From assembly GCF_030815975.1 (NCBI RefSeq), contig NZ_JAUSXL010000002.1, positions 4,948,501 through 5,012,500 on the forward strand: a stretch of 64,000 nucleotides of DNA. Reading direction: 5' to 3'. The notes under the pieces are model-generated. The model saw only the letters and a list, made by a program, of their open reading frames with translations, had not been told where the DNA came from and did no database searches. Below are positions 52,732-55,733 of this stretch, in pieces (position 1 is the stretch's first letter; each line of letters starts with the position of its first letter). This stretch comes from Variovorax paradoxus. GTDB taxonomy: Bacteria; Pseudomonadota; Gammaproteobacteria; Burkholderiales; Burkholderiaceae_C. The translations under genes and the position numbers were made by a program.

Positions 52732-53340
52732 CTAGCCCATCTGCCGTAGTCCGGCCATGACCTCTTCGGTCGGCGGCAACTCGCTGGTTCGCCAGACCAG
52801 CCGGGCGTGACGATCGAACAGATAAACCTGGCCGGTATGGCGGTCGCCCGCTGCCGCGCCTCCCGTGAACAGCGAGAACATCGACTCGAATGCCTCAGGG
52901 GCTGGCGCCGCCGCGCTCCACGTTGGCCTTGCGCCGAAGCGCCGCAACCAGGCGCTCAGTGCAACAGGGCCGTCGGACAGCGGGTCGATGCTCAGCGACA
53001 GCAGGTGCACCGCCGTGTTGCGCTCCGACAGCAATGCCGCCTGCAGCGTCGAGAACAAGGCCCCCTGGATCGGGCAGACCGTGCTGCATCCGGTAAACAT
53101 CAATTGAACGGCGGTGGGGGCGCCTCGCAACTGCGCCGCGAGCATCGGTGTGGCGCCGTCGTGGCGCCGCAGCGGCAGGGCCGGAGCCGACACCGCCGGG
53201 AGCACCGGGCCGATGCTGGTGTTTGCGCGGGCCGGAGGCACGCCCAGCCAGGCCAGTGCACCGGCGGCAAGCAGGCGCCGGCGCCCGCGGGATGCAACCC
53301 GCGAGTGTATGAAGGGGCCCCGCGCGTTCATTGGGTTCAT
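52732..53340 (-). CDS. SCO1/SenC-family copper chaperone
   Basis: Protein of 202 residues with a twin-arginine-like signal (RGRRRLLAAGALAWLGVPPARA, about 19-39) and a thioredoxin-fold domain. The copper ligands of the SCO family are present: Cys85 and Cys89 in TGCSTVCP, and His168 in DRHTGQVYLFD. SCO proteins load copper into CuA of cytochrome oxidase and, in Streptomyces, into the copper radical oxidase GlxA. The start is coupled to the preceding cytochrome c gene (ATGA), third in a unit with a galactose-oxidase-like gene. No cytochrome oxidase gene adjoins, so the oxidase in the operon is the likely client. Confidence 0.9.
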   Translation of the reverse strand: MNPMNARGPFIHSRVASRGRRRLLAAGALAWLGVPPARANTSIGPVLPAVSAPALPLRRHDGATPMLAAQLRGAPTAVQLMFTGCSTVCPIQGALFSTLQAALLSERNTAVHLLSLSIDPLSDGPVALSAWLRRFGARPTWSAAAPAPEAFESMFSLFTGGAAAGDRHTGQVYLFDRHARLVWRTSELPPTEEVMAGLRQMG

Positions 53341-53810
53341 TGAGAAAGGGCTTGCGTCAGGTAGTCCCACAACGCCGCGCACTGGCCTTCGTCGGCATCG
53401 AAGCGCGGCATGGCTCGGGGCAGCGTGACATGGGCCGGGTCGATGCCGGTGCGCAGCGTGCGGCAGAAGGATGCGTGCTCGTACGCGACGGGCGGGCCGC
53501 CGCGGCGCGGGAGGACTTCGCGCAATTGGCGCCGGTCGAGCGGCGGCGCGAAACCGGAGACAGCGGCAGTGGACTTGCCGGGGCCCGCGTGGCACTGGAT
53601 GCAGCGCGTCGCTGCGCCCGGCAGCGGCGCGCTGTGGCCGGACAGCGTGCCTGCGAGTGGCTCGGTGCCATCGAACAGGCGTGCGCCGCGCGCCACCGAG
53701 AAAGCCTCGGCGACTTCAGGCTTTCCGGACCACGCCGGGCCAACGGCCAGTGCGGTTCCGAGCGCCAGTGCCAGCATCATCATCGAAAGCCTCGGCTTCG
53801 CGAAGCGCAC
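53337..53810 (-). CDS. Cytochrome c, class I-like
   Basis: Exported monoheme cytochrome of 157 residues. A signal peptide (about 1-28) leads to the heme motif Cys70-Ile-Gln-Cys73-His74, and Met134 in LPRAMPRFD is the likely sixth ligand. Cys117 is a lone extra cysteine. The GTG at 53810 gives a basic signal-peptide N-terminus (RFAKPR) six bases after the oxidase stop. An ATG at 53783 with GAGG upstream is an alternative start. Coupling to sco by ATGA and closeness to the oxidase suggest it accepts electrons from, or supplies redox activation to, the copper radical oxidase. That is inference. Confidence 0.88.
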   Translation of the reverse strand: MRFAKPRLSMMMLALALGTALAVGPAWSGKPEVAEAFSVARGARLFDGTEPLAGTLSGHSAPLPGAATRCIQCHAGPGKSTAAVSGFAPPLDRRQLREVLPRRGGPPVAYEHASFCRTLRTGIDPAHVTLPRAMPRFDADEGQCAALWDYLTQALSQ

Positions 53811-53816
53811 CGGCCG

Positions 53817-55733
53817 CTACCGGATGTTGATGGTGCTCGCCACGCTCGGCACGCCGCTGCTGTCAAGTGCGAACAGCATGTAGTTGCCCGGCAGCACCGT
53901 CCCGCGATCGGTCGGAATGCCCAACTGGTAGTTATTGCCTGCCGTGCCCGTGAATGACAGCGGGATGCGGCGCTGATCGGTGTTGACCGAGTGAGTGGCC
54001 GATGCCATGCGCACCAGCGCAAAGCGGGCCGCCGCGCGGTCGGTCGCGACGGCGATCTGGCTCCCCCATGTGGCGCTGGCCGGCGCGGTCGTGATGGCCG
54101 GGCGGGGCGCCGGCGAACCGTCGCTCGCCAGCAGGTACGGTGGCGTGTAGATCTCCGCATCCGGGTGATCGCCCGCACAGTCGCACAGCCCGCCGCCGCC
54201 CGACAGCACGCGTCCGTCCGGCAGCAGCAGGGCCACGCTGTGATAGTTGCGCGGTTTCTGCATCGGCGGCACCGTGATGAAGCTCTCCAGCTCCGGGCTC
54301 CACAGTTCGGCCGCCAGCACACTGTAGGAGTCGGAAAACGGAACGGGCTGCGTCTGCCCGCCTATCACGAACACCTCGCCGTTAGGCAGCACCACGCTGT
54401 TGACAAAGGTTCGGCCATAGGCCATCGGCGAAAGCTTGCGCACCGTGGGCGGCGTCGGCGCGCCCGCGCTGATGTCGATGATGTAGGCGGTCTTGAAGGC
54501 GTTGCCGCTGTCGTGGTTGGGCGCGCCGCCGAGCTTGAGGATCTTGCCGATGTCGTACATCACGGCGCTGGCGGTCATGGCATAGGGGTCGTCGCTGCGC
54601 AGCCCGGCCTGCAGGATGGCGCCGCTGCCGCGCGTGTCGATCCAATGCATTGCGGCAGCAGGCCCGGCGTGGAATACCCAGCCGTTGGCGGCGCCAAACA
54701 GCCACATGTGGTTGTCGCCCCGGTAGACCCCGGCCGCGTCCGGGCCGGCCAGCGGCGGATTCGAGACATTGCTCGCATCGGGCATGTTGGCCGGTACGCC
54801 GGACAGCGTGCGCCAGGTCTTGGTGTCGGCCGACCACACCTCGCCGTACTTGCCGCCCTGCCCGCCGTTCCACGACCCGCCGACTGTGAACACGGAGCCG
54901 TCGGACATCGTCGTGCTCGCCTGGTAGGCACGTGCAATGCCGAGTTGCGCACCCGTCGCCCAGCCGCCCAGCGCCGGGTCGTAGATCGAGGTCTTCGTCG
55001 CATCGCTGCCGCCGCTGACCAGCACGCTGCCATCGGCCAGCATGCTCAGGCCAGGGCAGAACATCTGGTGGCCGGTGGCCGTGACGACCAGCGGGCTGGC
55101 GCTTCGCGTGACGGGGTCGAACACCGAGGTGTAGGTGTACGCGTCGCTGCTGTTCGTGCTGAAGCTGGTGGGCGAGCGGGCTGCCCACAGCAGCAGCTTG
55201 CCGTCGGGGAGGTTGGCGGCCGATGCGGGCACGAGTGGCAGCGCGATCGGATCGGACCAGGGCTTCACCGCTGCGGTCGATTGCGCCGCGGTGTACCCGG
55301 CTGCCGTGAACAGGTACTCGTTGGCCGGCAGCCACTTCCCCTTGAATCGAGAGCGCAGCCGGACCACGAGCCCCGCGCCGTCTATGGGAAGGTTTGTCAC
55401 CGTCAGCGTTGTCGCACTTGTCGATGCGTCCACCACAGGTGTCGCCGAAGAGGCCGACAGGATCGTCAAGCCGTACTGGTTGGCACCCGTGTTGTTCCAG
55501 ATGAAGGTTGCGCTGCGGCTGGCGAACTTGATGCCGGGGGACGGACTGGTGAGGGTCGCCGGCTGTCCGTCTGGTGGCGCCGGCTTGCTTGCCGATGCGG
55601 ACGTGCCCGGCAGCGTCGGATTTGCGCCCTGCGCGCGGGCGCCGCCTCCTGCGTCACCGCCAGACCAAACCAGGAACACCAGGGATGCATAAGCAAGCCC
55701 GCGCGCGGCGCGCGGCGATGGAACGCTGGTCAT
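53817..55733 (-). CDS. Galactose-oxidase-like copper radical oxidase (GlxA-like)
   Basis: Secreted oxidase of 638 residues. A signal peptide (about 10-34, ARAQ) is followed by an immunoglobulin-like domain (about 60-147), a seven-bladed kelch region (about 165-530) and a DUF1929 C-terminal domain (about 540-638). All active-site residues of galactose oxidase have counterparts: Cys226 (FCPGLS) and Tyr270 (ARAYQAS) for the Cys-Tyr crosslink, stacking Trp288 (GGSW), axial Tyr497 with His498 (RNYHSV), and His581 (ATHSVNTDQRRIPL). The ATG at 55733 has AAGGAGC upstream. It probably oxidises a primary alcohol or aldehyde with release of H2O2. The substrate is unknown. It is the first gene of an operon with cytochrome c and sco. 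Confidence 0.92.
   Translation of the reverse strand: MTSVPSPRAARGLAYASLVFLVWSGGDAGGGARAQGANPTLPGTSASASKPAPPDGQPATLTSPSPGIKFASRSATFIWNNTGANQYGLTILSASSATPVVDASTSATTLTVTNLPIDGAGLVVRLRSRFKGKWLPANEYLFTAAGYTAAQSTAAVKPWSDPIALPLVPASAANLPDGKLLLWAARSPTSFSTNSSDAYTYTSVFDPVTRSASPLVVTATGHQMFCPGLSMLADGSVLVSGGSDATKTSIYDPALGGWATGAQLGIARAYQASTTMSDGSVFTVGGSWNGGQGGKYGEVWSADTKTWRTLSGVPANMPDASNVSNPPLAGPDAAGVYRGDNHMWLFGAANGWVFHAGPAAAMHWIDTRGSGAILQAGLRSDDPYAMTASAVMYDIGKILKLGGAPNHDSGNAFKTAYIIDISAGAPTPPTVRKLSPMAYGRTFVNSVVLPNGEVFVIGGQTQPVPFSDSYSVLAAELWSPELESFITVPPMQKPRNYHSVALLLPDGRVLSGGGGLCDCAGDHPDAEIYTPPYLLASDGSPAPRPAITTAPASATWGSQIAVATDRAAARFALVRMASATHSVNTDQRRIPLSFTGTAGNNYQLGIPTDRGTVLPGNYMLFALDSSGVPSVASTINIR

Follow-up and report, generated by a model that had tools for sequence, protein, structure and literature searches.

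How copper radical oxidases obtain their copper, and how they gain and keep a protein radical in living cells, is an open question. These enzymes have an inactive, non-radical resting form, and building the radical site needs the removal of electrons (PMC9770985). Fungal copper radical oxidases are switched on in vitro with added peroxidase, and fungal alcohol oxidases have a dedicated tandem haem peroxidase whose activation of the oxidase was followed by electron paramagnetic resonance and dose response (PMC9770985). GlxA of Streptomyces is one bacterial case in which Sco and a haem peroxidase are both needed: GlxA fails to mature when either Sco or the haem peroxidase DtpA is missing, added copper rescues both, and the authors proposed that DtpA oxidises Sco-bound Cu(I) (PMC4736821). 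Here we describe a three-gene locus of Variovorax paradoxus, which lies on a stretch of 64,000 nucleotides (the window; contig NZ_JAUSXL010000002.1, positions 4,948,501 to 5,012,500) and runs on the minus strand from 55733 to 52732 of that stretch. It encodes a galactose-oxidase-type copper radical oxidase of 638 residues, a small c-type cytochrome of 157 (or 148) residues and an SCO copper chaperone of 202 residues. A preliminary description of the sequence knew of no characterised betaproteobacterial system of such composition, and none was found among the literature matches listed, which held only the Streptomyces and fungal systems; the link between SCO and oxidase is possibly contained in an earlier Sco genome survey cited in PMC4736821.

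The locus resembles each of these systems in part. The Streptomyces oxidase is also a copper radical oxidase whose known maturation needs Sco and a haem protein, but there sco, ecuc and dtpA are clustered, whereas in the window the oxidase, cytochrome and SCO genes are adjacent; moreover, GlxA is a distant relative and its haem protein is a peroxidase, not a small cytochrome (PMC4736821). The fungal peroxidase-alcohol oxidase pairs likewise join a copper radical oxidase to a co-encoded haem partner in a conserved pair, but the partner is a class II peroxidase, the genes stand head to head and the available part of the report mentions no SCO, in contrast to the CXXCH cytochrome and SCO of the window (PMC9770985). 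The nearest solved relatives of the oxidase, with the same fold and active site, are the galactose oxidases of Pseudoarthrobacter siccitolerans (9g43, 9g8h) and Fusarium (1gof), for which we know of no cytochrome or SCO partner. An SCO is reportedly paired with a small cytochrome in a Pseudomonas SCO-cytochrome c fusion, for which our search found no paper; that protein is fused and comes without a galactose oxidase, whereas the window has separate genes with a likely client adjoining. MauG and the bacterial di-haem cytochrome c peroxidase (CcP) are related to a domain that is fused to the oxidase in related genera and is absent from the window oxidase.

That the oxidase, cytochrome and SCO genes are linked is well demonstrated. 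Twenty-three genomes of the genus with a short oxidase were examined, namely the window's genome, G302 (L066) and 21 others represented by 22 loci, and all 22 of these short-type loci fetched carry oxidase-cytochrome-SCO on one strand. Chaperone and client are therefore encoded together, as the preliminary description had supposed, and conservation of the gene set, which it had named beforehand as the test of its proposal, extends far beyond the strain, to the genus, family and plasmid samples. Per genome, the top 12 oxidase and 38 cytochrome candidates were scored in the genus sample, 4 and 12 in the family sample and 3 and 9 in the order sample, so that misses are possible. In the genus, a galactose-oxidase-type oxidase of at least 490 bits was present in 25 of 101 genomes (13 more had only weaker relatives, at most 141 bits), and the cytochrome profile matched the identical 25. 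In the family sample of 299 genomes, 16 reached at least 430 bits with the oxidase, another 12 having nothing closer than weaker relatives (174 bits at the most), and the same 16, spread over 12 genera, reached at least 100 bits with the cytochrome; eight further genomes had a cytochrome match of 36-56 bits. Among 399 genomes of the order, the oxidase was strong in three (the window's genome, G411 and G753) and the cytochrome in two (the window's genome and G411), with weak cytochrome matches in 11. No genome of the three samples had a strong cytochrome match without the oxidase. The Fisher p values for co-occurrence were 3e-24 in the genus, 8e-27 in the family and 9e-68 in the union of 783 genomes, with G427, an order-sample genome discussed below, counted as having neither gene; they ignore relatedness and are descriptive only. 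This pattern suggests that the cytochrome helps to build the oxidase or to switch it on.

The linkage extends to plasmids and to relatives with a much longer oxidase. A plasmid collection held the oxidase in nine records, six betaproteobacterial and three from Streptomyces, and all six betaproteobacterial records have the cytochrome with SCO nearby. Their gene order is SCO-oxidase-cytochrome in Paraburkholderia, Caballeronia and two Cupriavidus records, and oxidase-cytochrome-SCO in Burkholderia arboris and in a Comamonadaceae record (CP099607.1) that is probably the replicon G365:C5 already counted, and so not independent. Eighteen genomes have the long oxidase (15 of the family, G411, G363 and G365), and 14 of them hold all three genes in the fetched stretch, with the oxidase on the opposite strand in three and the order cytochrome-SCO-oxidase in two. 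In G076 the oxidase is 492 kb off and cytochrome and SCO are still paired; in G209, G043 and G172 it is on a different contig from its partners, the SCO of G043 being beyond reach at a contig end. The G172 oxidase runs off its contig, and the open reading frame beside the cytochrome there resembles long-oxidase domains, including C-terminal ends, so that oxidase and partners may be neighbours after all. Where this could be scored among the long-oxidase genomes, the cytochrome adjoins SCO in 16 of 17 and stands about 1 kb away in the 17th; the cytochrome matches of G199 and G363 each contain one internal stop codon. Gene maps of the relatives' loci were made with home-made gene callers.

The surroundings of the trio bear on whether it is held together by function. 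The window's flanking genes (a flavoprotein, an HxlR regulator, a methyltransferase, dnaX and a UvrD-like helicase gene) are partly or wholly common to 10 of the 23 short-type loci (the 22 plus L066) and are all missing from the other 13 in the stretches examined, with the trio intact. Together with the patchy occurrence in the genus, these differing chromosomal sites indicate that the block probably moves, as would be expected if SCO and cytochrome served another cuproenzyme, such as the haem-copper oxidases, and stood by the oxidase through chance or in a block that moves whole. We regard such a passive association as very unlikely. Linkage alone would hardly survive as co-occurrence that is complete over 12 genera of the family and through several gene orders and strands; the genome has a second SCO that fits the family better than the one in the window (154.7 versus 42.7 bits); and the ratio of non-synonymous to synonymous substitution rates (dN/dS), 0.14-0.52 for all three genes in nine genome comparisons, places each of them under constraint. 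Chance linkage was rejected, or at least weakened, on the co-occurrence samples and on a trio kept together through changes of order, strand and chromosomal site.

The oxidase gene (53817..55733, minus strand, as are all features given below) encodes a protein with Pfam matches to GO-like_E_set (77.9 bits) and Kelch_6 (62.7 bits). Its layout consists of an N-terminal signal-like region, a beta-strand domain (about residues 58-145) that is Ig/Fn3-like by inference, the Kelch propeller and the GO-like E-set domain; no carbohydrate-binding family was matched in Pfam. In the PDB it matched 9g8h/9g43 at E 9.8e-147, 1gof at E 2.7e-130 and GlxA at E 3e-31. Its AlphaFold model (predicted local distance difference test score 83.5) had 9g43 as top Foldseek match (E 3.3e-59) and fitted 5c86 with a root-mean-square deviation of 1.8 over 491 columns. 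By sequence and predicted fold the enzyme is thus best classed as a galactose oxidase proper, nearer to galactose oxidase than to GlxA. Membership of the GlxA family was considered and rejected, the NCBIfam GlxA equivalog scoring 154 bits against a cut-off of 800, so that the kinship with GlxA drawn in the preliminary description stands as relatedness and not in the narrow sense.

All six active-site residues named in that description are at their positions and in register with the solved galactose oxidases. Cys226 (55056..55058), the expected cysteine of the Tyr-Cys cross-link, and Tyr270 (54924..54926), the expected cross-linked radical tyrosine, align with those of galactose oxidase and are kept in 52 of 52 oxidase domains, and the same holds for conservation of the copper ligands Tyr497-His498 (54240..54245) and His581 (53991..53993). 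The stacking tryptophan Trp288 (54870..54872), equivalent to Fusarium W290, is Trp in 48 of the 52 and Phe in four. These counts cover oxidase domains above 500 bits, with L111, L112 and the weak domain of L093 left out. The Trp290/Arg330 pair has been described as the key indicator of galactose 6-oxidase activity, the Arg being necessary but not sufficient (PMC11267884). Its equivalents in the window oxidase are W288 and R338, and the Arg occurs in 42 of the 52 domains. Asp408 stands at the position of Fusarium Gln406 in the alignment with solved galactose oxidases and His407 at that of what we take to be Fusarium Tyr405, and with these two differences the substrate is not settled. The enzyme had been called secreted, and a signal-like N-terminus agrees with this, but lipoproteins may be common among its relatives: of 26 aligned oxidases, 15 have Cys in a lipobox-like setting where the window protein has Ser24 (codon 55662-55664), and 7 have a gap. 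The window oxidase, with Ser24, may be free rather than lipid-anchored. A phage home for the oxidase was set aside, as it had no match in a phage collection.

The cytochrome gene (53337..53810) encodes 157 residues from a GTG start at 53810, or 148 from an ATG at 53783 that has GAGG ahead and is as good a start. The six-base gap reported between oxidase and cytochrome accordingly exists only with the GTG and becomes 33 nt with the ATG. As described before, the cytochrome is monohaem: its single haem motif, CIQCH (residues 70-74, 53589..53603), is CXXCH in 44 of 45 relatives, the match in the 45th being split. Met134 (53409..53411), the sole Met after the N-terminal region, is kept in 45 of 45 and is probably the axial haem ligand. 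Two further cysteines, Cys116 and Cys144, are invariant in a 26-row alignment, and a disulfide between them is only a guess. The protein falls under every Pfam cut-off (PF13442, 19.1 bits versus 27), and the likeness of its predicted model to class I cytochromes is middling by score, with no Foldseek match at E 0.001. From sequence and model together, it appears to represent a class I-like, previously undescribed family.

The SCO gene (52732..53340) encodes a SCO1/SenC-family copper chaperone (PF02630, 42.3 bits versus a cut-off of 22.8). Its copper-binding motif CSTVCP (residues 85-90, 53071..53088) is kept as CXXXCP in 44 of 44 relatives, and so is His168 (52837..52839), the expected third copper ligand of SCO. 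The reported overlap with the cytochrome gene was confirmed: the ATG of SCO and the TGA stop of the cytochrome share an ATGA at 53337..53340, and an in-frame SCO start at the same 4-nt offset is shared by 20 of the 22 short-type loci and by 10 of the 18 others ordered cytochrome-SCO. At G000:C2:2896001-2899142, the top SCO of the genome lies about 2.6 kb from a weaker SCO match, and this pair is possibly a respiratory SCO locus.

We tentatively read the trio as a dedicated maturation cassette, in which SCO loads copper and the cytochrome is the one-electron partner of copper loading or radical building, although this reading could well prove wrong. As we infer the course of copper transfer, the path and timing of the electrons and the substrate, SCO, with its CXXXCP and His, would pass copper to the apo-oxidase in the periplasm, and the cytochrome would most likely take the electrons released as the Cu(I) bound to SCO becomes Cu(II) on transfer. 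It would likewise take those of Cys226-Tyr270 cross-linking and of Tyr-Cys radical formation, and pass them to the respiratory chain. The mature, exported oxidase would then oxidise a primary alcohol group and yield H2O2, with galactose-like sugars as the leading guess. In this way the cytochrome would do the one-electron work done by haem peroxidases in the case of GlxA and its fungal relatives; it fits the slot of DtpA because it is a haem redox protein, is encoded with SCO and oxidase and co-occurs with the oxidase. A compact three-gene cassette in a culturable Variovorax makes the question of maturation directly testable, and the cassette could aid the production of active galactose oxidases in bacteria.

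Several observations weigh against maturation as the general role of the cytochrome. Fusarium galactose oxidase matures with copper alone, and its cross-link is said, in the title of a paper, to form without need for dioxygen. In the order sample, G753 (79% complete, with the oxidase gene truncated on a 3.1 kb contig) and G427, which has a more distant oxidase of 269 bits, showed no cytochrome match. In a phylum sample the oxidase was found at E 1e-50 in 3 of 279 genomes besides the window's, one with a stop inside the match, and a profile search gave the cytochrome in none of these three oxidase genomes sampled outside Burkholderiales; that search had no positive genome alongside, and the same profile had matched in the genus, family and order searches. 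All three Streptomyces records, which are plasmids and not chromosomes, match neither the cytochrome nor SCO. The cytochrome is therefore not needed for the chemistry in general, and the oxidase-cytochrome pair is, as far as sampled, a Burkholderiales trait, the oxidase existing elsewhere without it. Gene order speaks no more clearly. Of the five plasmid loci fetched, four have the oxidase placed between the other two genes. A closer bond of the cytochrome to SCO than to the oxidase was tried as an argument and dropped, since on recount both adjacencies hold in 39 of 44 loci (22 short-type, 17 long-type that could be scored and 5 fetched plasmid loci). Linkage is thus silent on which of the two proteins the cytochrome serves, and this equality moved weight from the maturation reading to the two explanations that follow.

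In the first, SCO alone would mature the oxidase, and, after each loss of the radical, ferric cytochrome would oxidise the resting Cu(II)-tyrosine form by one electron to active Cu(II)-radical. The dedicated peroxidase of the fungal alcohol oxidases is a precedent for such activation (PMC9770985), co-occurrence of cytochrome and oxidase is complete in the genus and family samples, and the cytochrome adjoins the oxidase in all five plasmid loci fetched. On the other hand, cytochrome and SCO stay side by side in G076 with its remote oxidase, and were the oxidase exported to the surface, a candidate location, a periplasmic cytochrome would meet it only in transit. The observations support a part for the cytochrome in copper loading alongside SCO no less than its acting on the finished enzyme; taken as a whole, the account with SCO as sole maturation factor is possible, though we consider it somewhat doubtful.

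A haem partner at the oxidase recurs in another form. Frames of 1,648-2,101 residues hold the oxidase in two Variovorax genomes and in the 11 oxidase-bearing genera of the family besides Variovorax (for example L073:5350-10461 (+), L087:2105-8083 (-) and L086:8743-14334 (+), with 16 further), and 18 of these 19 long oxidases have two CXXCH motifs, the 19th having one. Pfam placed in all three long oxidases scanned the oxidase, Ig/F5_8C/PKD domains and, above their cut-offs, CCP_MauG and a RoxA-like cytochrome domain; a propeller (YNCE model) was seen in the three below its cut-off. As judged from these domains, the fusion would form a copper-radical/di-haem chain. G851, of the same class and another order, has an oxidase frame of 3,186 residues with CCP_MauG, followed by a CCP_MauG gene. 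CXXCH is absent from the window oxidase, which is accordingly not of the fusion type, and from the short Variovorax oxidases and five fetched oxidases of Burkholderia, Paraburkholderia, Caballeronia and Cupriavidus. This MauG/CcP-like fusion lends support to activation of the finished enzyme, but genomes whose oxidase carries a di-haem domain still have the cytochrome, which argues against it.

The same fusion bears on a second alternative, that the cytochrome is the physiological electron acceptor of the oxidase, or the donor for H2O2 removal, and ties sugar oxidation to respiration. Dehydrogenase operons commonly encode a periplasmic cytochrome, and CcP members of the family to which the fused domain belongs draw their electrons from small cytochromes. 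The suggestion in the preliminary description that the cytochrome could spare the enzyme its sole reliance on O2 drew no support from the analysis. We consider this alternative quite unlikely: the active site is of the kind found in O2-using enzymes, the SCO gene would be left unexplained, no di-haem domain is present in the window oxidase, and a di-haem protein encoded elsewhere in the genome shows no association with the oxidase in the genus. The protein in question is a 1,620-residue frame with a propeller and two CXXCH motifs in the window's genome (L139:5836-10698 (-), C2 near 2,300 kb), whose propeller/di-haem part is 38-39% identical to the ends of the fused oxidases and whose N-terminal part differs. 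Matches to it occur in 55 of the 101 Variovorax genomes and include fused oxidases: the match in G363 and one of two in G365 are the fused oxidase itself, and those in G299 and the other in G365 are frames that also have a weaker oxidase match. Matches occur in 16 of the 25 oxidase genomes versus 39 of the 76 others (Fisher p 0.36), and the protein was on that ground rejected as a di-haem partner acting in trans for short oxidases.

The analysis also brings up a cytochrome family that had not been described and oxidases in which a copper-radical domain is fused to a di-haem one. A broader proposal, speculative and rather unlikely in our view, would be that the copper radical oxidases of these Gram-negative bacteria neither mature nor become active unaided in the cell, that Burkholderiales evolved a dedicated cytochrome which drives Tyr-Cys radical formation with a client-specific SCO, and that in the other genera of the family the oxidase was in addition fused to a MauG-like di-haem domain, so that copper-radical and high-valent haem sites in one chain activate each other via the H2O2 formed.

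Distant relatives of the cytochrome were also examined. Twelve weak matches were fetched (L113-L124), in which the cytochrome lies inside frames of 474-791 residues; Pfam, applied to two of them, gave Peripla_BP_6 (97 bits) in one and a cytochrome match alone in the other. An SCO-family match lies within 300 nt in 10 of the 12 and 2.4-3.2 kb off in L114 and L117, and none of the 12 stretches has a galactose-oxidase match. These neighbourhoods link cytochromes of this kind with SCO and suggest a partnership that reaches beyond the oxidase. Six of the loci also have a propeller-like or subtilase gene next to the cytochrome.

A scan of the locus for promoter-like sites (0 found, 0.4 expected) and terminator-like sites (2 found, 1.0 expected) was uninformative. 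G299 has, apart from its trio, a second oxidase cluster (L093) that neither the cytochrome nor SCO adjoins. In L092 and L094 the order is oxidase-cytochrome-SCO-oxidase, as if two clients used one maturation pair. On the plasmid NZ_CP038636.1 of Cupriavidus oxalaticus there are two places each for oxidase, cytochrome and SCO, and on NZ_CP017563.2 of Paraburkholderia sprentiae two for the cytochrome; the trio may be duplicated on these plasmids.

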